64,000 nt of DNA from contig CM055100.1 in the NCBI GenBank assembly GCA_029204225.1, positions 51,955,260 through 52,019,259 on the forward strand, given 5' to 3'. Origin of the DNA: Diphasiastrum complanatum (lineage: Eukaryota > Streptophyta > Lycopodiopsida > Lycopodiales > Lycopodiaceae). Below are positions 3,271-18,815 of this stretch, in pieces. Both the position numbers and the translations under genes were made by a program. The stretch's first letter is position 1; each line of letters starts with the position of its first letter. The notes under the pieces were generated by a model. That model was given only the letters and a program-made list of their open reading frames with translations, did no database searches and was not told the origin of the DNA.

Positions 3271-4029
3271 TCAGTTTACAAGTGTTGTAGCAGTAGGCTG
3301 GCTTGCGAATCTTTCTTCGTCTGATTCGTCGCTCAACTGAGGTGCAACTCGAACATCTTTGTCTGAGTGTTCGTGTTCTGCTTCCTCTATCGCGGTTGGT
3401 AGACCATAACATTGTCTTCCAAGGACTTCATACCTGACAGGATCATTGTTGGCCATTGTTCTGGTCTCATCGAACTTGACGTCTTTGACAGTCTTCACTG
3501 TGTTTGTCTCTGGCATATAGATTCTGCAGTATGACAAATGATTGTCATATCCTACAAGATATTCTTGTTCTGCTTTCTCATCAAGCTTCTTTCGAAGCTT
3601 GTCAAGAACATGTGCATATGCTGCACAACCAAAGATTCGAATATGAGTTAGATTCAGTTTTCTACCCCACCATAGTTCGTGTGGTGTTGTATGAGAAACA
3701 CCTGATTTTCTTGTCCCTTTTTGAATGTAGGCAGTTGTAGCTACTGCTTTAGCCCACAACACTCTTGGAGCCTTCGAATAGGCCATCATGCACCTAGCGG
3801 CTTCCATGACAGTCATGTTCTTTCTTTCTGCAATACCATTGTGCTGCAGTGTATAGGATGTTGTCCTTCTCTGAGTGATTCCTTGATCATTGTAGAAATC
3901 AGTGAATCGGTTTGAGATGTATTTTCCACCTTGATATGTTCTGATCCACTTCACTTTATTTCTTGTGCATCTTTCTGCCCAGCTCATGCAGGTGGTCAAA
4001 TTTCCATGATTCAATTTTTCATCATCCAT
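3271..4029 (-). pseudogene. Copia-1 integrase remnant (rve core, C-terminal half)
   Basis: Integrase would insert retroelement cDNA into the chromosome. The frame contains NKVKWIRTYQGGKYISN, where the family has RTDxGGEY, so the second catalytic Asp is Tyr. The third catalytic residue survives in HNGIAERKN, followed by the conserved LWAKAVATTAYIQ and HIRIFGCAAYAHV segments and the VGYDNHLSYCRIY motif. The N-terminal HHCC zinc finger and the first catalytic Asp are absent because the DNA jumps from the end of gag into the core. Confidence 0.85.
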
Positions 4030-4207
4030 CTTCGAGCTTTCTGGCTTTTCGACGTGTCTTCGGGTTTAGCTAGCACAAATCGACAGTATATACTTTGCGT
4101 TTGCATCCCACGCATATTTTCTTGTTGCCATTCTATTGTTTGGGCTTTCCTTTGTTCTTCCATCTGCCTCTGTTGGCTCCCTCTGCTTGCTGGTCTCGAT
4201 CCTGCCT

Positions 4208-4894
4208 TCAGTCTGGCTCCCTCTTAGGCTTGAACTGCTTCTTTGGCTTTTCTTTGTTGCTGTAGAGAGCTTGGTCAGAAGCGTCTTTGTGATCAAGGTG
4301 CTCACGAGCTTCGACTTCCTCTCGAATCTCGATCACTGCCTTTTCGAGTGTCATAGCTAGATCCTTTGCTAGCAATGTTTGGGTTGTTTGGAAAGATCTT
4401 GGTAAAGCTCGTAGTAGGTAGGTAAGCTGCTTCTCTACTGATACTGATCCGATGTTGTGTAATGAAAGAAACAGATCCTTCATCTTTCTGATAAAGGAGG
4501 TGAGGTCTTTGCCATCCCATTGTAGGTTTGTCAGCTGATCTTCAAGAAGCATGATCTGACTACGTGATTTCGTCTGAAATCTTGTGAGCAAAGTATCCCA
4601 GATCTCTCTTGCATTGGAGAGTGTAGCCAAGTCAAGTGTGAGAATATCTTCAATGGATGATGACAACACGGCTACTGCCTTGTCGCTCTTTTTTTTCCAT
4701 TCGCGTAGCTCCTTGCCTGTAGTTGCTGGCATTTCTTTGGTGCCATCTACCCAGGCCCATAGCCCTTTTCCCTTCAATATGAGAGAGGTCTTTATCTTCC
4801 ATGCTAGGAAGTTCGACCCTGATGAGTCGAGAATTGTACAGATCTTTGATTGTATACTGCTTATTGAAGCCATTGCCTTGAACTGTGTTCTCAC
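4208..4894 (-). CDS. Copia-1 Gag (capsid, UBN2/retrotran_gag-like)
   Basis: About 228 codons. The likely start is the second Met (MASISS, near 4870), because copia Gag proteins usually begin close to this point. Typical features in order are NFLAWKIKTSLILKGKGLW (the motif around the first Trp), then AREIWDTLLTRFQTKS, LLEDQLTNLQWDG and a Lys/Arg-rich tail. No CCHC zinc knuckle is readable; downstream frames around 4066-4210 hold only a decayed CVGC-like piece. It would form the cytoplasmic virus-like particle. It is open but sits in a dead element. Confidence 0.8.
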   Translation of the reverse strand: MRTQFKAMASISSIQSKICTILDSSGSNFLAWKIKTSLILKGKGLWAWVDGTKEMPATTGKELREWKKKSDKAVAVLSSSIEDILTLDLATLSNAREIWDTLLTRFQTKSRSQIMLLEDQLTNLQWDGKDLTSFIRKMKDLFLSLHNIGSVSVEKQLTYLLRALPRSFQTTQTLLAKDLAMTLEKAVIEIREEVEAREHLDHKDASDQALYSNKEKPKKQFKPKREPD

Positions 4895-4989
4895 TTGTTA
4901 CTGGTTCTTTGTCTTGAATGCTTTGCCTCCTGGATTCGATAGCTTTGCAGCTATATCAGACTATAAGATGTTCTGATTACTAAATCTAC

Positions 4990-5002
4990 GGCTCTGATAC
5001 CA
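4990..5002 (-). other. Copia-1 primer-binding site (initiator-Met tRNA)
   Basis: Read on the minus strand this is TGGTATCAGAGCC, complementary to the 3' end of plant initiator-Met tRNA and the commonest copia primer site. It lies one base inside the 5' LTR and fixes the element's orientation. Confidence 0.9.
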
Positions 5003-5003
5003 C

Positions 5004-5628
5004 TGATGAGGATTCGCGACTTTTGAACGAATGAAACGTGATCACCTGATGCGAACACTACGCGATGAATTCAGATGGAGTTTAAATTTGATTGCTGGTC
5101 ACTGCCGGCTATATCATTCCTACAATCCTCCAGAATGTAGAGAGACATTGCTAACCTATGTTTAAGTTAATTCAGCATTCAACAAGATTGAACCTATGTG
5201 CGGAATAGATAAACAAGCGAATGAGATACACGAACAATGTGCAGACAATAATTCAATCGAGATCAGACAATTTGAATGATATGTGCATAACAGCTACAAC
5301 ATCATCTATTGATCCTCTTGTTCAAGCACTGTGTGACAGACCCACACAGTGCATTGGCATGAGAGAAGTAGTGTTCTCCCACGAACAATGTCTCGCTTAC
5401 TAGCGGACTTCTTGGATCTCTGTGGATCTTGCTTACAATGTCTCGCTCTCTGGCGGACTTCTCTATTCTGTATTTTTCTTTCTGTATCTTCTTGTATCTT
5501 TAGTGCATCTAGCAATTACATATATTCAGAGTAACATTTTTGATTAGATAGATTAGGCAATCTAAGACTAACCACAGATTACAAGAGTGGCGGACTAGGC
5601 ACGTCCTAACGTTCTTCTGTTGATGTCA
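5004..5628 (-). repeat. Copia-1 5' LTR
   Basis: About 625 bp ending one base from the primer-binding site. On the minus strand it starts TGACATCAAC and ends CCTCATCA, giving the usual TG...CA ends with a short inverted match. The right boundary rests only on the TG/CA rule because there is no second LTR to compare. Confidence 0.65.
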
Positions 5629-5858
5629 CCATATCATATCAGGAGACTGTACTTCATGGTACTTGTTTGATCTTCCTGGTCCTTTGGAGCATGAAGAGTC
5701 GAAAGTTTTTCGTTTCGCGTTGTTTGACCTTCTCCTATTGTTCGTGTTGTTCATGTTGTTTGCGAACATTTCGTCTATTTGTTCTTCATTTTCATCAGGT
5801 TGGGAGTCGAGAGCTAGTAGAGCTTTGGTAATAGAAACACTTTGTTTCTTCAAAAACC
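5629..5858. other. short unassigned stretch between Copia-1 LTR and ParB/methylase pseudogene
   Basis: A minus-strand frame of 83 codons (5877-5626), rich in Asn, Lys and Arg, crosses this stretch. I do not recognise it. No promoter is evident on the plus strand for the gene beginning at 5859, and any upstream sequence may have been displaced by Copia-1. Confidence 0.3.
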
Positions 5859-6605
5859 ATGACTCCCAAGGGCACACATACTAGCTCCAAGAAGAAACCC
5901 CAGCCCCAGGCTTCTAAGTTAAATCTACCTGGGGCAAAAATCAATCTTGAGCTGGCCAGTTGGGATGTAGCAAAAATGCGTGTTGTGATTCATGAAACCA
6001 AAAAAATCCAAGCCACAACTTTTATTCTTGATATTGAACAATGTGACAGGCCCCCCATTGACCCAGCCATCGGTGACAAGCCCATGGAGGTTAGGGAGCC
6101 CAATTCCTCCCATGTACATAATTTAAAGATAAAATTTAAGGACCCACCCAAGCCATAGTTACCCCCTTTATTGTCCTTGTTGACCTTGTTGATTGTCCGA
6201 TAGTGGCAAATTTTGATATTCAGTGTATAGATACCTGCAATTTTTTTGTTTTGGGCGGAATTCATAGCTTGCAAGCCAGAAAGGAGCTCTTAATTGAGTA
6301 TTCTCATGTATAGTCTTTTAGACAAGTTAGTGCTATAGTATTTGCCGAGCTGACTGTTGAGGAAGCCAAGCTCCTTGCATGGGACCATAATATTGACTAG
6401 GATTACAGATTGAAGATGTCTGTTATAGAAGAAGTCAGATTATTCCATAAGGAGTACCTGAGGCTTCACAAAGAAGGGGACAAAACAAACGTACAATTGA
6501 AGTGCCTTTGTGCACAGGAGATTGGGCTACTCTTGGATGAAAAAATCCAGCCTCCTCATTGACGAAGTATGATAATTTTTTTCAGTTGGCCTTCCAAAGG
6601 AGCAT
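5859..6605 (+). pseudogene. exon 1: ParB-like (ParBc/sulfiredoxin-fold) domain
   Basis: The frame opens at ATG 5859, with a Lys/Gln/Pro-rich lead. It then shows the ParB-like order: an ILDIEQCDRPPIDP segment, a strand reading TPFIVLVDLVDC after a frameshift at about 6156, the diagnostic FFVLGGIHSLQARKELL (family pattern: hydrophobic strand, G-x-x-R/H, then A-x-x) and finally AIVFAELTVEEAKLLAWDHN with a following helix. ParB domains bind CTP or act as nucleases in bacteria; in methylase fusions the role is not settled. Stops at 6311-6313 and 6398-6400 and a second shift near 6555 break it. The likely donor is GTAATT at 6606. Confidence 0.6.
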
Positions 6606-6699
6606 GTAATTTTTGTTTACTATTAGTGACATTGTTCTTCTCTTCGACATTATTCTTAAATCAAAATAAAATCCTTTAGCAATTTTTTTTTTGTTTCAG

Positions 6700-7045
6700 A
6701 TTTGGGACCTTGTAGATAAAATTTTCGACAAGTGGGACAGATCAAAGGATGTTGTTGTGAGTGTCCTGTCGAGAGTTGCTGATGGACAACTCAGCCTTGT
6801 TGAGATGGGAAAAGAATTTCAAAGGTGATTTTGTTTTTTTAATTCTAAATTCTTATTTTTAACTCATGTGCAAAATCTTTAATCTAATCATTGTAGTTTT
6901 TCTCAGACACAAGCTTCTCATGAAAGTGCAAGAGGCTATGGTCAAGAGCCTCAACTGCCAGGATTGGGAGGAATGCCAAAGGCTGTACCCAGACAGCTCA
7001 AAAGATGAAGAGCTCCAAAGATTTCTTATTTTATCCAGGGATATG
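6700..7045 (+). pseudogene. exons 2 and 3 of the ParB-methylase pseudogene
   Basis: Exon 2 (6700-6824) follows a T-rich tract ending TTTCAG and reads IWDLVDKIFDKWDRSK before the donor AAAG/GTGATT. Exon 3 (6907-7045) follows TTTTTCTCAG and reads RHKLLMKVQEAM, then NCQDWEECQRLYPDS, ending at ATG/GTAAGG. Both are open across their length with consistent GT-AG borders, which argues that this was a spliced gene and not a processed copy. The helical linker has no domain I recognise. Confidence 0.55.
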
Positions 7046-7415
7046 GTAAGGCTCTCTTACAAATTTTAATTTTAAATTACCAATTTGCAAACATTGTTTA
7101 TGCTAAGCATGGGTGTTTTTTCTTAACTATTTCTTAAATTGTTATTTTTGACATCATTATTCAACTTTTAAGTACAAGTTTAGCATTTGAGAGACCCATG
7201 CATAGCATAAGTGTATTTCTAATATAGTAACTTCTCTTGTAGACAATTGAGAGACTCATGCTTATAGCATAAATGTATTTCTATTGTCATTTATTTTCTT
7301 TTATATTATTGTTTTTTCAAATCAACATTCATGCTTAGCATAAGTTCATGTCATTAGTAACAAAGTTAACATTTGAATGTCATGCTTAGCATAAGTGTAC
7401 TTCTATTTTTCACAG
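7046..7415 (+). repeat. intron with repeated CATGCTTAGCATAAGT units
   Basis: The intron between exons 3 and 4 holds at least four copies of a short unit close to CATGCTTAGCATAAGTGTA (near 7105, 7200, 7330 and 7381), separated by T-rich DNA that includes CTTCTATTTTT-like tracts. It ends in TTTTTCACAG. Confidence 0.55.
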
Positions 7416-7862
7416 AGTTCTAAAGATAAAAAGAGTGGGCAGCTTCCAGAACAGTTTAGAACCCATCTTCAGAAAGCCAAGGCCGAGAAAAAACACAGAG
7501 AATCACAACAGACTGGAGACTCAAATGTTGATGATGATCCCAAAGAAACGTTTATTTCCAAGTCTGTTGATGATCCTCCTTGTTTTTATACAATACAAAA
7601 AGGTGATGCAAGAGAGATAACCAAGTTTGTAAAAAGAAGACCTGACACTCTCTGGATCACGGATATTCCGTACGGGTTTATACTTGCGGGTTCATTGAAT
7701 GATGATCACCCATTTAAGTACACTGAAGTGAAAGAAGTCGTTGTTGGTTTCCTGGGGGTCACTACTTTGGAGGATAGTGATATTTCACTCCAGTTGGCAA
7801 CAAGTAGGTGTTCACAAGGCCCTATTGGAAGTCTGCAATGCAGAGATAAAGAACGCCATTTG
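7416..7862 (+). pseudogene. exon 4: methylase catalytic (DPPY-type) region
   Basis: After a charged linker (KKSGQLPEQFRTHLQKAKAE and following) the frame reads FYTIQKGDAREITKFV, matching the conserved start of N4/N6 methylase domains (a Gly-Asp pair with a following acidic residue). It continues with TLWITDIPYGFILAG. The family motif is D/N/S-P-P-Y; here the first Pro is Ile. The helix that follows (KYTEVKEVVVGFLGVTT) fits the domain. The exon is completely open for 149 codons and ends at TTG/GTAAGT. Confidence 0.6.
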
Positions 7863-7966
7863 GTAAGTACTGATTGTAATTAAACATATATAGTCACAAG
7901 TCGATTTATTATTTTAAACATGTTATGTTATCTGGTTTTTTGACTTTTTGCATTTGATGTTTGTAG

Positions 7967-8590
7967 GTACAAACCAAATGTGCGCAATTCTGGTGGTGCA
8001 CTTCTCTTAATGAGATCGAATATCTCAGCATCGGTTACTTCTCCCTCGATGGAAAGAGATCCATGTTGCATTACAACACTGTAGGAAACACCGATTTTGG
8101 AAATCATTTCGATTTTTCTACAGTGACAAAAAAACTTAAAAATCCAATGACTGGTTTCGTGGCTTGACCATATCAAAAGCCATAACAACTTGTAAATAAA
8201 CTTAATTAAAATGTTTTCTCATCCCACAGATTGGATTTTAGATTTATTTTAGTGGCACTACTAGTGCATGTGCTATCCAAAAGGGCAGACATGTTGCGGT
8301 CTCAAAATAAGATGAGAGTTTAGCAAGTTTTATTAAGATGAGGCTAGGTGGTATTTCAGTTTTGCCCGATGAGTTTCAAGAGGTTGGCAAGTTGGGCCCC
8401 TCTGAGGATGGTATCGTTCCATTTGTTAAGGACCTCAACCACCTGCCAGTGTTGTTGGTGATGAAGGAGAACTGGTCGAGGTGGTCGAGCAAAGCTACAA
8501 AGTGATTGAAGAAATTGTATCTGTTTAAGACGGGACAACACCTCCAACAAACACAAGGGTTGGAAGCGTTGCTACTCCAGATCTAAATGA
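7967..8590 (+). pseudogene. exons 5-6: methylase C-terminal part with SAM motif
   Basis: Exon 5 starts after TGTTTGTAG and reads EYLSIGYFSLDGKRSMLHYN before two stops near 8166 and 8184. The last exon begins after CCCACAG (8230) with ILDLF; then, one frame over, SGTTSACAIQKGRHVAV and DESLASFIKMRL. This matches methylase motif I (D-x-F-x-G-S-G-T-T, small residues, then an acidic residue and a helix ending Arg-Leu). A tail reading GGISVLPDEFQEVGKLGP follows. The proposed last intron, about 38 bp, is unusually short, so exons 5 and 6 may be contiguous with a deletion. Confidence 0.55.
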
Positions 8591-10697
8591 TCTGGTTGAG
8601 AATTTTTGACTCTGTGAAAATTTGAGACTATGTAATTTGAAACATTCAACAAAATTTTATTTTTAAAGAAATCTCTTTTATTTAAAAGATTATTGTACAA
8701 AATGTTTATTTATTATATGTTTTTAATTATCTTTTTGGTGAATGATTTTATTGTTAAATAATATTTGGTAGAATTTTAGCATTTCTTTTTTAATACTAGA
8801 TTTGTTTAGTTTACTTGATTCCTAAAATACAAATATCAAATTACAAACAACGTCTAAAATTTATGTTTGTTTTTTTGTTGTTTTTTATATAAAAATATAA
8901 AATTTTAAATTTTACAATCACTTGCTTAATCTATCAACTATTTTACATAATAATTAATTGCACACAAATGATATTTTTATTTTTTGTGCTATACTTGCTT
9001 GATCTAACAACTATTTTACTTAATAACAAATTGCACACAAGTGATATTTTTATTTTTTGTGCTATTTTAGTGTAAAATTTTAAAAATATTTTAACTAACT
9101 GCAAAATATACAATCTTGCAAAATAATAAATTCATTTTTGAATTTAGAATTCAAAAAGCACTTGAATTTCAAAAAATTGTAAGTTCACAAAAAAAAATTG
9201 GGTCTTGTGCCATTTCTAATTTCATAAGATTTCGTGTTGAATGTGAATGTTGCCTTCCACTTTAACAGTGCATGTGAGAGAATGAAAGAGTGGAAGGACG
9301 TCAGTTTAATAGCATGAAGGGTCAAACCACATGAATGTTCAATAGCAAGGAGCTATTTTTGGAGAGCCATAAGCTTAAAGATTGGTTTCCCTTGCATTTT
9401 TTTATTGTAAATGTAGAAGTCAACCCATCATAGAGAAGATCTTTATATATATTACACATCCATTAGAGAGTTCGAATACTCTAAATCAAGTCCTAAGATC
9501 CACCAATGAAAAGAGAAAATCTTAGGTGTGATTAATTGCTACTTAGGCAGCTATGAGGATGTGTGTCAACCCTCCTATTATTCAATCATACATGGTCTTA
9601 TCTTGCAAGATACATGTCTCCCCATTGGTTTGAATCCATAGTACACAGATTGCTCTCTTTGTGGTGCGAAGCACGAAGCATCATTCAAGAGCCTAATATA
9701 GAATCACCATGCAATATTACACAATGTCAAATCTTTAAAATAGTTATATTAGAGATGTCGTTGTGATTGCTTTTTTCTCTTCTTTCTCCACAATGATTGC
9801 AAAAACTCTCGTTATTTTACTTCTAATGTGCTTCAATTGGCACTCCTCATCTAAAAAGAGAGATGGAAGAGTGAAAACAAGCATCCATCCACATATAAAT
9901 TTAGAGAAAGAACTATATGACACGCAAAGTAGTGATATCTTCTTATTATCATTTTAGGATTGAACAAGAAAACTTCTTGCGCACTGGAACACTCGTAGTG
10001 ATTGAAAAATCTTTCTTGATAGCATTCAACGTAATCTAGTGACAATCCCAACTTATAAGTATCATCTTTTGTCATATCATCTTCTGTCTTGAATGTGCCC
10101 AAGGACTGCATCTAACCGAGATTGTGTACAACCAATAATTCTATAATATTATGTGAAGTTGTCCATGTTGAATCATTCGTTGGTAAGATGAGACATCACA
10201 TCACATACTTACATCTCTCTCTTGCTAATTATACAAAAAATAGACTAACTTTGAGTGCAACAAAAGTCATAGTTGTGATGAAATGGTGCTTCAATTTTGC
10301 TTGCATTATTAGCTTTTGTGATGAGTTGGGTGTCCATTTTTTGAAATAGTGTCGAGCTACGATGTTTTAGCAACTACAAAGCTAATATGATTGCCACACA
10401 TGAGATGACATGGACTTTTCCAGTCTTGTAAAATGACATCCAAGTCTCCCTTAGGAAGTAGTAAGAACTTTTATATGTTAAGATATATAGTAAAGCTTTA
10501 ATTTGAGCCTTTTTCTAGTGGGACTCAAAGCCTTGACTTTAATGAAGTGTTTTAACTTCTAAAAAGATATGGAGTCGTTTTCCCCTAGCACTTTCAAAGG
10601 TTCCCTTTTCTTCGAGTGGCCCAGAAGAATTGCGATTCACTTTCAAGGTGAAGTAGGCATTGGATTAGTCACTTCCCACTTCCACTTAAGCTCCAGC
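8591..10697. other. AT-rich intergenic DNA
   Basis: I see no supported gene. Open frames are short and lack recognisable domains. The first 600 bases are very AT-rich and include a tandem duplication at 8921-9065. Confidence 0.5.
8921..9065 (+). repeat. 73-bp tandem duplication, AT-rich
   Basis: Two copies, 8921-8993 and 8994-9065, each run from CTTGCTT.ATCTA.CAACTATTTTAC through a shared ATGATATTTTTATTTTTTGTGCTAT-like end, with a few substitutions. Confidence 0.75.
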
Positions 10698-10699
10698 CT

Positions 10700-10771
10700 C
10701 CAAGATTGAGAAGTGCAAACATAACCACTCTAACTCCAAGATTGAGAAGTGCAAACATAACCACTCTAACA
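10700..10771 (+). repeat. 36-bp perfect tandem repeat
   Basis: The unit beginning CAAGATTGAGAAGTGCAAAC and ending CCACTCTAA occurs at 10701 and again at 10737. The CCACTCTAACAAACGT tail is then partly repeated twice more up to about 10795. Confidence 0.85.
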
Positions 10772-11387
10772 AACGTAGCCACTCTAACAAACGTCATTAA
10801 AGTGAAAAAGTTAATATGCAAAGTTCAAACTCAACCGTGAAATGTTAAACTCGTGAAACTCCAAACATATTTCTTTACAAATATAGACCTCATTAAGTGA
10901 TACGTTCTATGAGAGTATACACAATAACACGTTACAATAGGACTGAACTGTCAAACAACTATAAAATATAAGACAATAACCAGACGTATGTAACACTTGA
11001 TGCAGCTTCAGGTAAGCTCAGTATAACATTCCAATAAAACATGAAATAGTGTTACATGAAGATGAGGAAACATAAAAGCATCCAATTCTTAAGGCAACAA
11101 CAAAGACATACATTTACTTAAACTGGGGTACAACAATAATACGCCAATATTCAGCAAAAGGAGACAGGTCATGGTATTATCAACTACACACATCTACGTG
11201 CCTGCCTCATCACTTGACTGATCTGTGACACAAAACACCCAAAGTTACCATCACCTGATGTAAGTCAAACCAAAAGAAACCAAAAGAAGAAAGCTACAAC
11301 TTGATCAAAGACCATCCACTGCCAAGTGTTTGCAAGAGGAGTGATGCTTGAGGTTACATGAATCTCTCCTTGCGTTGATTTTCAACC

Positions 11388-12458
11388 TCAATACTCATCG
11401 TTTGCGAGAGGAGTGTGAGTAACTGGAACCAGGAAGATCTCCCCATATGTCCAACCAGCAAGAGATCCACCTATTAGAGGGCCAACCCAGTAGATCCAGT
11501 GATTCTGCCAGTTCCAGGTGACGAGAGCAGGTCCGAAGGAGCGTGCAGGATTCATGGATGCCCCGCTGAAAGGGGCTGCAGCTAAGATGTTTGCTAAAAC
11601 TATGAAACCTATGGCGATAGGAGCTATTCCGCCCACAGTGCCCTTGGCCCGGCTATCTACTGCAGTTGCATAGACTGTGAAGACCAATCCGAAAGTAGTG
11701 ACAATTTCCCAGACTAATCCTGTGATGACGCTTTCCTTGGCTCCCAGTGCATGCACAGGTACTACCTGCAATAACAAAACGCGGGGTTAGATGTAGAGTA
11801 TGTACTCTAGTAATTGAAGACATACTTCAGTAACTCGAGTAGATAGAGTTTCAATACCTCGCCGCTGGTAATAAACTTGAGGATTAGAGAAGCAGCAGCT
11901 GAGCCAAGAAGTTGAGCAATCCAATATAAACTTCCTCGTAAAAACGTAATTTGCCCTTCCACTGCTAGTCCGAGAGTCACGGCTGGGTTAACGTGCCCAC
12001 CTGAGATGTTAGCAGTGGCGGTAATCACGACAAATAAGGCTATTCCGTGTGCAAGAGCTATGGCTACCAAACCAGCTGGTGTAAGATCCCCCGGCGGAAG
12101 GATCTTTCCTGCACGTTCAATCTCAGCGAATTATTATACAGAATCGGCACTATGACTACAAACTTAGCACTTCTGAATAGCTCGCAAATTGGCTATATGT
12201 TAGATGTCGCATTCGAGGACTTGTATTCAGCCAAAAACTGGAATGGAGAGACATAAAAGCCTTCTGGATAAAAGTAGTCAAAACGGTGAGTTAATGTGAT
12301 AACACAATTCAGATAAGGAGTGAAAATAAACCGTATGCTATGGCTGAACCGACTCCAGCGAACACGAAGAGAAATGTGGCGAAGAATTCTGCCAAAACTG
12401 CCCTGAGAACATCAGGAGCTGTAGCCTCCTGAACTCCACCGATTGCAACTCTTCCCAT
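11388..12458 (-). CDS. tonoplast intrinsic protein (TIP) aquaporin
   Basis: A vacuolar-membrane water/solute channel of 251 residues in three exons: 12458-12332, 12108-11858 and 11765-11388. All introns are GT-AG and phases match (Tyr-Gly-Lys is rebuilt across intron 1; intron 2 is phase 0). Start is MGRVAIGG, directly before the first helix. The pore motifs are NPA at residues 83-85 (SGGHVNPAV) and 198-200 ([10 protein letters not shown]). The selectivity-filter positions read His63, Ile186, Ala195, Arg201. HIAR is the set known from TIP3 and TIP4 types, not TIP1 (HIAV) or TIP2 (HIGR). Six membrane helices are visible. No stop or frame break is seen, so this is the one intact cellular gene here. 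The subgroup needs a tree. Confidence 0.93.
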
Positions 12459-13080
12459 GTTGCCGTTGCTGCTCTAATCTGTCTGCTTTGAACAATGTTT
12501 CAGAGACCTCTTCCCTCTTTCTTCTATATGCGATTCCCCCGTCGCTCTCGCCAAGCAAAATCGAAATCTCTGGAAGCAGAGCAAACAAAGAGAAGACACG
12601 AGAGGAGAGAGAGAATGAGAAGGCGAAGGGGAGCGTGGCCCTTTAGTGCAGATGAGAATGGGATGGGTCATGGGGCCATGGGGCCACGGGTCCTTGTGGC
12701 TGGAGGCTGTTTCCACCGCCTTTTGGCCGCCCCTCCTTGTCTGTTCGCCACTGCGGGCCCTGGCCTGTCCCCCGTGGGACCATCCCTTAACAGGCTACAG
12801 ACGGTGAATCTTAGAGGATCCACCCTGGCTCGTCACAGTCACCGGTCACGGCGCTTAACCAGGAGCTCAGAACCGACACCTGTAAAGAGTCCATGGCCCC
12901 TACAAAGTACCACGATCCTCTAGTACTGGACAGGCTTTATCTCCGGTCGAACCATACTCAAACACGTGTACAGATAGATAAGGCAAACTGGAAAATAGTA
13001 CGCCAACTTCCGATGCTCTGAAAACCGGGGCAAAGTAATACGGTTGACAATGCAAAGTCGATTCCCTTATTTATTTACTA
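12459..13080 (-). promoter_or_regulatory. TIP upstream region / probable 5' UTR and promoter
   Basis: Upstream of the TIP start codon lies a pyrimidine-rich stretch on the coding strand (12540-12640), then a GC-richer block at about 12640-12960 unlike the AT-rich surroundings. I could not place a TATA box or transcription start with confidence. Overlapping open frames on both strands (about 12470-12920) are best explained by the raised GC content. Confidence 0.45.
12962..12969. promoter_or_regulatory. ACACGTGT G-box / ABRE-like palindrome upstream of TIP
   Basis: A perfect 8-bp palindrome with the CACGTG core, about 0.5 kb before the TIP start codon. In plants this core is bound by bZIP and bHLH factors and is common in abscisic-acid- or light-responsive promoters. 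One 8-mer can occur by chance, so the functional call is weak. Confidence 0.35.
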
Positions 13081-15554: not shown

Positions 15555-17329
<1,775 letters not shown>

Positions 17330-17620: not shown

Positions 17621-18815
17621 TGTTGGATTATTCTCTTTCCTACTAATCGACTAATCAGTTTTTAATCTTCATACAACTGTTTATCTAGTTCTACGAGTTT
17701 TTCCGTGTCTTTATACAATCTGCAGAATTTCAAATGTTTTTACACAGTCTGCAGAAATACATGGAGTTTGACAACAATGTCGCATTTTCTCTCTACAAAC
17801 CCGATGAAGTCACCTGTCATATATCTCGTGTAAAAATGAAGTGTCGGCTTTTTCGCATTTTTTGCCTGTCGGGATTTATGTGTAAAAATGCAGTGTCGCC
17901 TTTTTCGCATTTTTCGCTTGTCAGGAATTACGTGTAAAAATGCAGTGTCGCCTTTTTCGCATGTCAGGAATTACGTGCAAAAATGCAGTGTCGCCTTTTA
18001 CGTATTTTTTGCTTGTCAGAAATCACGAGTAAAAATGCAGTGTTGCATTTTTCGCCCGTGGCAGTTTACATTCATTTATGCAGAATGACAGTTTACATTC
18101 ATTTATGCAGACAGACTGTTTACGACCAATTGTCACCGCTTATTAACAAGCAACTTCCGAGAAGAACTGGATGAATGCCAACGGACACCAGCCAACTGGC
18201 AATCACATTTGATGACCTAATTACTTAGTATAAATCAGTTGTTCATACATCTCATTATCAATGTTATTGTGAATTGTGAGAGTGTTATCACATGACGCTT
18301 TCTGTGCTCTCATCAAGCAGATCGTTCACAATCAGAAAGTATTGTTGTTAGCTCTCTATCAAGCTTTCAAGCTTGAACTCTCTTGAGCATTCTAGCTCAG
18401 TCTTTTAGAGATTTATTTTAGAATTGCTAGTGCGCTATTGCTTATCAGCAGAGTTGCTTATTTCAGACTTATTCTCAGTTACTCAGAGACAACTTTAGAG
18501 TGCGCGATTTCTATCCACTATTGTCTTGCACTCATTAGCATCTGATCTTGTTTTCCTGAATCAATATTATTTTCTTATTGCATTCAGTTTGTGTTAGAAT
18601 GCATGCATCTCTGTATTGTTTTTGTAATTGATAGAAACTGTCTAAGAAATCAATACTTTATGTTTGGCTACGTAATCACTTAGTATCTAGCAAAAGTTAG
18701 TTGGTAAAGATTGGACGTGATTTCCATCACTACTACTTTGTTCAATTTTTGATAGGCGTAGTCATGCATTGGAAGTAGGAAGTTTTTGCATTCTATTACT
18801 CACCTATTTCTGACA
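17621..18815 (+). repeat. Copia-2 5' LTR
   Basis: Starts TGTTGGATTATTCTC and ends TTTCTGACA, directly before the primer site. The start matches the 3' LTR of Copia-11 (TGTTGGATTTATCTC on the minus strand, ending at 62531). Both also share CGTGTAAAAA..AGTGTC and TTTATGCAGACAG motifs, so they belong to related families. A likely TATA box (AGTATAAATC) lies near 18228. The 5-unit tandem array at 17828-18063 enlarges this copy. Confidence 0.75.
17828..18063 (+). repeat. five ~52-bp tandem units inside Copia-2 LTR
   Basis: Units begin GTGTAAAAATGCAGTGTCGC and continue CTTTTTCGCATTTTT.GCTTGTCAGGAATTAC. Starts lie near 17828, 17880, 17932, 17975 and 18026; the third unit lacks about 8 bases. A second small duplication follows (CAGTTTACATTCATTTATGC twice, 18060-18110). 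Confidence 0.8.

Follow-up and report, generated by a model that had tools for sequence, protein, structure and literature searches.

The closest described relative of the system reported here is Sola1-1_Ec32, a 21.5-kb DNA transposon of the brown alga Ectocarpus in which a gene joining a ParB-like domain to a DNA methylase lies on the strand opposite to the transposase (PMC12477816). In the excerpt of that paper drawn on here, the authors label the domain ParB-like, propose that proteins of this type bind the transposon that encodes them and modify it, and cite ParB-methylases from transposons of green and red algae (Iyer et al. 2011; Petroll et al. 2025). According to excerpts of two further papers, a Sola1 element of Salpingoeca produces a 4-bp duplication (PMC6875170), and bacterial-type N4-methylcytosine (4mC) serves as an epigenetic mark in a bdelloid rotifer (PMC8885841). 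A literature search of titles and abstracts, covering the open literature and few subscription journals, revealed no ParB-methylase transposon of a land plant among the matches listed. Here we analyze a stretch of 64,000 nucleotides from the clubmoss Diphasiastrum complanatum (GenBank assembly GCA_029204225.1, contig CM055100.1, positions 51,955,260 to 52,019,259; hereafter ‘the window’), for which an original prediction, made from the letters alone, had proposed a decayed gene joining a ParB-like domain to an N6/N4 DNA methylase. We show that a DNA transposon of approximately 8-9 kb, with two divergent genes, has left a decayed copy in this region; the genes are this ParB-like/methylase gene and one that encodes the domain DUF7869.

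Results

Copies and ends of the element

We conducted a protein search of the whole Diphasiastrum genome (1,744,706,496 bases in 5176 contigs) using the first methylase exon of the window as the query. At least 150 matches were obtained: all 150 places scored, out of 2196 first-look candidates, matched, including the window itself, and the strongest match outside the window among them had an E-value of 4.1e-64. The methylase-gene family is a high-copy family in the clubmoss genome. Similarly, a 300-base query of the left end of the element gave at least 40 matches (40 scored of 1180 candidates), and DUF7869 gave at least 150 (150 scored of 2953 candidates), while DUF7869 had no match in 14 control genomes.

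Twenty copies were fetched at 10 kb, 19 of which were picked for a match without inner stops, so that the sample is biased towards better-kept copies. The pieces of the gene occur in the same order across the 20 copies, except for one stray piece on the opposite strand in L021, and a complete set of pieces is rare. Nine copies (L010 and L020-L027) are mostly 88-94% identical over several kb, with few lower pieces. Because the matches are genome-wide and the order of the pieces is constant among the copies, the gene structure goes beyond chance, and the analysis confirms that the ParB-like/linker/N6-N4-type methylase gene in the window is real, as a pseudogene. Two Diphasiastrum gene models, P0020 (O6H91_23G046600) and P0021 (O6H91_Y145100), end in methylase exons and are two of the four proteins that a search with the methylase half found. 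They also bear Pfam domains PF00067 (P450) and PF07885 (ion channel), and are either chimeric models or cases of exonised transposon.

Next, copies A (L022 plus L029) and B (L030 plus L024) were extended. The stretch that they share is sharply bounded (4805-12942 in A and 3775-12884 in B), giving a whole element of about 8-9 kb in each, with the ends AACAC...TGTT and two divergent genes. The left end, AACAC(A/G)ATGAC, and the right end, GTCATCATGTT, are mutually inverted with small differences. The left end AACAC(G/A)ATGAC is common to A, B and all six of the further copies, in which it appears as AACACGATGACATTTG and all flanks are different; the left end of L025 is AATACGACGAC. Right ends were inspected in nine copies, of which five have CATCATGTT and one has CATCATATT. 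L037, one of the fern-type relatives described below, has the ends AACACGTTTGCGTGAAGAA and TTCTTCACGCAAACATGTT. Thus, the copies have terminal repeats in common and unlike flanks, a point that the original prediction had raised as a question. Exact 4-bp target duplications were found at A (ATGT), B (AACT) and the fern-type L033 (TGTT), that is, in three of the six elements with both ends known. The shared sharp ends and unlike flanks, taken together with an intron layout that the copies retain, show that the copies moved as DNA and not via RNA.

The second gene between the ends runs opposite to the methylase gene. The Pfam scan identified DUF7869 (PF25273) in two of its pieces, at 1.8e-16 and 2.2e-28, the latter adjoining the methylase in copy B, and the gene lies between both ends in A, B and L033. 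In 10 of the 20 clubmoss loci (L009, L014, L017 and L022-L028), its pieces lie on the upstream side of the methylase gene, in divergent orientation. We also observed that the C-terminal part of this transposase-like gene at L030:4134-4730 (minus strand), PFWIAKVLGF...VYWLRTTSTNAFLGRYELEML, looks by eye like a chromatin-reader type domain; no Pfam match over the cut-off was found in that stretch.

The two halves of the methylase gene

In the sister copy L024 (5377-6069), PF01555 (N6_N4_Mtase) was matched with 44.3 bits against a cut-off of 26.7. Nine pieces of the window gene gave no Pfam match over the cut-off (in seven no family appeared, and the other two each had a single row below the cut-off), and in the PHROG scan six had no match and three had one weak row each. 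Of the two profiles named in the original prediction, PF01555 was therefore recovered in a sister copy, with the pieces of the window under the cut-offs, and ParBc (PF02195) in none of the proteins scanned. The closest solved relatives of the methylase half in the PDB are MboIIA, RsrI and CcrM (1.7e-5 to 2.5e-4); NCBIfam gave rows for PRK11524 and CcrM, both below their cut-offs; and the methylase of Natrialba phage PhiCh1 showed 24% identity over 95% of the plant query (E 1e-5). The methylase half can be securely predicted, from these similarities, to be an N6/N4-type DNA methylase of bacterial or phage type, as had been proposed.

We also examined motif IV with a pattern that left the second position open and demanded D and P. 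The 37 loci consisted of 28 clubmoss loci, including the window, and nine fern-type loci; as L002 and L028 are one place and other loci are near-identical, the independent number is below 37. The pattern matched 31 of the 37 loci, with D-I-P in 30 and DIPY in 28 of these 31, while four aligned phage relatives carry DPP. The DIPYGF of the window had been regarded as a decayed DPPYG; its occurrence as D-I-P in all but one of the matched loci rules this out, and on this comparison the isoleucine is characteristic of the family rather than a result of damage. Motif IV precedes motif I, the S-adenosylmethionine (SAM) motif, as in the permuted order. The clubmoss version of motif I is FSGSGTT; that of the fern-type copies is FSGTG, and an intron follows it.

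The N-terminal half contains the pattern PF.VMVD ... Y.VIGG.HS..A...L ... GL...EAKLLAW..N, which we take to follow the ParB core. A single sub-cut-off DUF6551 row was obtained over the core of P0016 in Pfam, and NCBIfam (four proteins) and PHROGs (17) gave weak rows only, with no ParB family. An alignment of the ParB-like half (A3) found no PDB chain up to E 1, a tblastn search of phages with the ParB-like protein P0017 found nothing up to E 1, and when viral contigs were scanned with the alignment of this half, there were 19 pattern matches, none of which was a relative. The ParB identity of this half thus rests on the motif and is weaker than the identity of the methylase half.

DUF7869 as a probable transposase

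Pfam lists DUF7869 without a function, and our literature search found no paper that names it. In an alignment of 66 DUF7869 proteins, D417 is invariant and D336 and D459 are near-invariant, with a gap of 41 residues between D417 and D459; this DDD pattern fits a transposase. Based on these three residues and on the context of the gene, we infer that DUF7869 is a DDD/E transposase.

Fern-type relatives

To find relatives, the read-through of L015 was used as the query and 7999 candidate proteins were scored. Eighteen proteins matched, all in the ParB-like half of the read-through, and most of the matches stop at a clubmoss exon border. A scan of bacterial and archaeal genomes gave 28 pattern matches, among which nine were relatives. 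All nine (L031-L039, contigs CAKZGI01...) belong to one metagenome-assembled genome, that of an uncultured Trichormus (ERR2144891_bin.1). The genes of L033 and L035, the two examined, need introns; L033 has polyprotein frames that resemble Ty3/gypsy by eye; and the named protein closest to the fern-type transposase-like protein comes from the fern Ceratopteris (58% identity). Trichormus azollae, also called Nostoc azollae, is the cyanobiont of the fern Azolla. Given the introns, the gypsy-like frames, the name of the cyanobiont and the Ceratopteris relative, these contigs are likely to be eukaryotic and derived from Azolla nuclear DNA. Their presence within a collection of bacterial genomes is, on the present reading, eukaryotic contamination of the database. 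An Azolla metagenome study with the accession PRJEB19522 (PMC5901025) may be the origin of run ERR2144891.

The upstream reach was sufficient in five of the nine fern-type loci (L031, L032, L033, L037 and L038), and a divergent DUF7869 gene was present in all five. Four of them have an unbroken transposase-like frame of 873-898 codons, and the two proteins scanned matched PF25273 at approximately 3.5e-51. In six of the nine loci, the ParB-like exon has an uninterrupted frame of 560-594 codons. Aligned protein pieces of the clubmoss and fern-type genes are 30-53% identical. The original prediction had suggested that the gene might belong to a eukaryotic transposon and have unbroken relatives elsewhere, and elements A and B and the fern-type loci bear this out. 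It had also proposed that a bacterial or phage gene entered this lineage: a simple entry is too narrow a description of a DUF7869 element that occurs in a clubmoss and, probably, a fern.

Selection on the genes

We then compared the proportions of synonymous (pS) and nonsynonymous (pN) differences between copies. For the first fern-type methylase exon (L033, L034, L035 and L037; six pairs), pS was 0.78-0.96 and pN was 0.056-0.117; for the fern-type ParB-like exon (six loci, 15 pairs), the values were 0.68-0.90 and 0.129-0.233. The fern-type transposase-like gene (four loci, six pairs) gave ratios of nonsynonymous to synonymous substitution rates (dN/dS) of 0.07-0.12 at dS of 0.96-2.9, and these ratios are hence rough. 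In other words, synonymous sites are saturated and amino acids are kept in the fern-type copies, which indicates strong constraint on their coding sequence.

In a second run, all copies, including broken ones, were anchored on the window exon and stops were skipped; the clubmoss groups B, W and Y were assigned by us from comparisons of the pieces and by blastn. Within these groups, the median pS/pN was 0.129/0.070 in B (45 pairs), 0.221/0.089 in W (45 pairs) and 0.348/0.109 in Y (15 pairs), which suggests weaker constraint. Between the three groups, median pS was 0.70-0.90 and median pN was 0.15-0.30, and between clubmoss and fern pS was 0.79-0.85 and pN was 0.44-0.46. We conclude that selection has preserved the accessory gene in element lineages more than in single copies.

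The copy in the window

The window contains the 3' part of the dead two-gene transposon, on the ParB-like/methylase side (5853..9238, plus strand, as are all parts of the gene given below). In blastn comparisons with the sister copies L016, L028 and L017, the similarity begins at 5853 and stops near 9238, the right terminus; past the terminal TTTCGTGTT (9230-9238), the flanks of the window, L028 and L017 diverge. The peptides quoted in the original prediction are present in order when 5859-8607 is read in three frames: FFVLGGIHSLQARKELL lies in the frame 6140-6313, FYTIQKGDAREI and DIPYGF both lie in the frame 7395-7883, ILDLF is at 8235-8249 and SGTTSACAIQKGRHVAV is at 8251-8301. Donor GT positions are 6825, 7046 and 7863, with the GT at 6606 as a candidate only, and acceptor AGs end at 6699, 6906, 7415 and 7966. 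Three introns therefore fit GT-AG, and for the fourth the AG is clear and the GT a candidate, these borders being predictions from the DNA.

Reading frames and the matching N-terminal parts of other copies assign 5859..6158 to what survives of the first exon, as an N-terminal stretch ahead of the ParB-like core; in tblastn searches, fern-type proteins were 28-36% identical over 86-194 residues including that stretch. The core itself (6140..6605), VTPFIVLVD...FFVLGGIHSLQARKEL...LTVEEAKLLAWDHNID, continues in other frames and with stops up to the candidate donor at 6606, and is 44-48% identical to P0001, P0002, P0007 and P0009 over 134 residues. It is followed by two linker exons that were delimited by frames, copies and borders, IWDLVDKIFDKW...SRVADGQLSLVEMGKEFQ (6700..6824) and HKLLMKVQEAMVKSLNCQDWEECQRLYP... 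(6907..7045, with GT-AG borders). The first half of the methylase is encoded by the exon at 7416..7862, with motif IV (DIPYGF) at 7662-7679 and a frame change near 7770. The second half is at 7967..8310 (YKPN...IEYLSIGYFSLDGKR...KKLKNPMTG...YQKP, then ILDLF and SGTTSACAIQKGRHVAV), again with stops and frame changes; the equivalent exon of L024 matches PF01555 at 2.6e-11. Frames and copies also indicate a tail after the methylase, FIKMRLGGISVLPDEFQEVGK... (8311..8607), and the 3' untranslated part and terminus occupy 8608..9238, with two 73-bp tandem units at 8920-9065. Signs of decay, namely stops and frame changes, were found in the ParB-like part, both methylase exons and the SAM motif, where a stretch has been lost from the window copy. 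In many sister copies, the halves of the linker exon at 6700-6824, joined in the window, are about 130-170 nt or more apart; those copies look split by one more intron, which the window copy may have lost.

The original prediction placed the start of the gene at 5859, and this did not hold. A Copia-type long terminal repeat (LTR) element spanning -1947 to 5852, negative positions lying to the left of the window, interrupts the methylase gene. Its near end (3271..5852, minus strand) comprises an LTR at 5002-5852, a gag-like open reading frame (ORF) at 4208-4897 and an integrase-like ORF at 3271-4065, the labels gag, integrase and Copia having been assigned by eye with no profile behind them. 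The far LTR is at -1947 to -1109, and the pair is 88% identical over 855 alignment positions. L016 represents the uninterrupted site, and no clean target duplication of the Copia-type insertion was found. Further to the left, -2516 to -1948 matches the upstream part of copy L016 and, by eye only, has a reading frame like the N-terminal part of the fern-type proteins; tblastn of this stretch with four fern-type proteins gave no match. Given the split and the matching DNA further left, 5859 is probably an inner methionine and not the true start. Within the span of the insertion there is also an inverted repeat pair (503-740 and 2241-2478, 93% complementary over 238 nt). Elsewhere in the window, 17827-18123 and 17116-17328 contain tandem arrays with units of 27-95 bp, together with a long AG microsatellite.

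Discussion

We propose the following mechanism for this element. The DUF7869 protein would cut at the AACAC...TGTT ends, leave the 4-bp duplications and move the element. The ParB-like half and the linker would bring the methylase to its DNA target, with the ends or inner repeats of the element itself as the likeliest site, and the methylase would place N6-methyladenine (6mA) or 4mC there. Such a mark could favour the element as a shield from host silencing, as a flag on new copies or by tuning the binding of the transposase. The element in the window is dead, being split by the Copia-type insertion and damaged by stops and frame changes. Taken as a whole, a DUF7869 transposon whose ParB-like/methylase gene marks DNA to the element's benefit is the reading that we favour, and we consider it reasonably probable. 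A wider proposal is offered tentatively, as one that may well not hold: clubmosses and ferns would share an ancient lineage of land-plant transposons whose own sequence-specific methylase marks the element's DNA (with 6mA or 4mC), thereby linking base modification to transposition or to evasion of host silencing.

Several observations weigh against the favoured reading. Three of the nine copies inspected lack such a right end at the place examined, and none was found in the six guessed windows of the six further copies. The duplication at L025 matches at only three of four bases (GTGT versus GTGC), and the fern-type L038 and L037 have no 4-bp duplication. No DUF7869-gene piece was found in the fetched 10 kb (E 1e-3) of nine of the 20 clubmoss loci, and in L016 the piece lies downstream of the methylase, near a second left end. 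The DUF7869 profile retrieved 18 rows from the PDB, all of which are xylanases (E 0.14-0.2). In the second selection run, the fern-type median for the same methylase exon, including broken copies, was 0.821 for pS and 0.215 for pN (28 pairs). As for the accessory gene, motif IV is usually DPPY, SPPY or NPPY, with the general form (D/S/N)PP(Y/F), whereas here it is DIPY. Membership of ParB_N (PF02195) was not borne out: no ParB family appeared in the Pfam, PHROG and NCBIfam scans, no scanned member reached the ParB_N cut-off in Pfam, and profile-profile comparisons were negative or weak. When aligned with phage ParB halves by hhalign, the longer comparison gave 0.3% probability, at an unexpected place; the local alignment of the core only paired the expected stretch, GGSHSAEARRQL with AGHGRILAAQKL, at 1.5% probability (P = 0.034 in one comparison; global P = 0.15).

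The best surviving alternative is an active methylase that works in trans: showing no preference for the element, it would mark the genome as a whole or serve as a decoy against host silencing, and its ParB-like half would be a general DNA clamp. This is compatible with the constraint on the gene and with the existence of phage ParB-methylase fusions (Vibrio phage 1.213.O and Natrialba phage PhiCh1). However, the retention of the gene across element lineages is easier to understand if the element itself benefits, and we regard action in trans as unlikely. It is also rather unlikely that the protein no longer methylates and is instead a DNA- or SAM-binding cofactor of the transposase. The isoleucine at the second position of motif IV, where the phage relatives have proline, would suit such a loss, but the D, the P and mostly the Y of motif IV are kept (D and P having been demanded by the pattern itself), motif I is also kept as FSGSGTT/FSGTG, and the methylase exon is under strong constraint. 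We reject as most improbable a host gene family spread by ordinary duplication, because its support, the two gene models P0020 and P0021 with methylase-gene exons, look fused to unrelated genes, and because the very many places (2196, 1180 and 2953 candidates, of which 150, 40 and 150 were scored), the common termini with unlike flanks, the exact 4-bp duplications in three elements and the DUF7869 neighbour in two plant lineages all argue for mobile DNA. Equally improbable, and likewise rejected, is a remnant of an endogenous giant virus or phage with its own methylase: phage ParB-methylase fusions are common (for the Vibrio phage fusion, 261 records have a coverage of 80% or more), but only two genes were recognised between the ends of A, B and L033, and the viral-contig scan described above found no relative among its 19 pattern matches.

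The occurrence of 6mA and 4mC in plant genomes is a disputed question. The methylase gene tied here to a DUF7869 element provides a concrete enzyme, host and target region for asking whether plant mobile elements write either mark. The seemingly unbroken genes of the fern-type relatives suggest that chemical marking of DNA may be within the capacity of some mobile elements of plants. If the wider proposal is true, a self-marking transposon would be a source of the disputed marks other than 5-methylcytosine (5mC) in plant genomes. In addition, DUF7869, a domain of unknown function in Pfam, gains a likely transposase role.

Compared with phage fusions, the plant gene has the same order, ParB followed by PF01555, as those of Vibrio phage 1.213.O, Wolbachia phage WO and PhiCh1. 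In Vibrio phage 1.213.O, ParB_N scored 26.9 bits against a cut-off of 26.3 and PF01555 scored 81.9 bits, and in PhiCh1 ParB_N scored 23.7 bits, below the cut-off, and PF01555 scored 122.4 bits. The three phage proteins scanned are 404-419 aa, in a single frame and with DPPY, whereas the plant gene has introns and DIPY, and its ParB-like half found no phage by tblastn and showed no significant profile similarity to phage ParB. Relatives of the transposase-like gene beside the methylase are found among DUF7869 (PF25273) proteins of ferns, Riccia, Chara and animals, including KP509_18G011500 of Ceratopteris richardii, which is the protein 58% identical to the fern-type DUF7869 protein over the region searched. 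The rotifer 4mC system, compared here by its description in the excerpt of PMC8885841, is likewise a bacterial-type modification in a eukaryote, but is described there as an epigenetic mark and not as a transposon gene.

Closest of all, as far as the available part of PMC12477816 describes it, is Sola1-1_Ec32, likewise a DNA transposon that has, on the opposite strand from its transposase, a gene for a ParB-like domain and an N4/N6 methylase. The two differ in host and in size, since the brown-algal element is 21.5 kb with an accessory protein of 1104 aa and the clubmoss element is about 8-9 kb; this comparison, like that of the ParB-like domains, is by description and not by sequence. The 4-bp duplication reported in the excerpt for the Sola1 element of Salpingoeca also occurs in three of the six elements with both ends known here (A, B and L033), and the clubmoss element may belong to the Sola1 superfamily. 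The green- and red-algal cases, again compared by description, have the same kind of accessory gene according to PMC12477816 and occur in other host lineages. Thus, the kind of element is already known from algae, and what is new is its presence in a clubmoss and, probably, a fern, the DUF7869 partner, the open fern-type exons and the evidence of selection.

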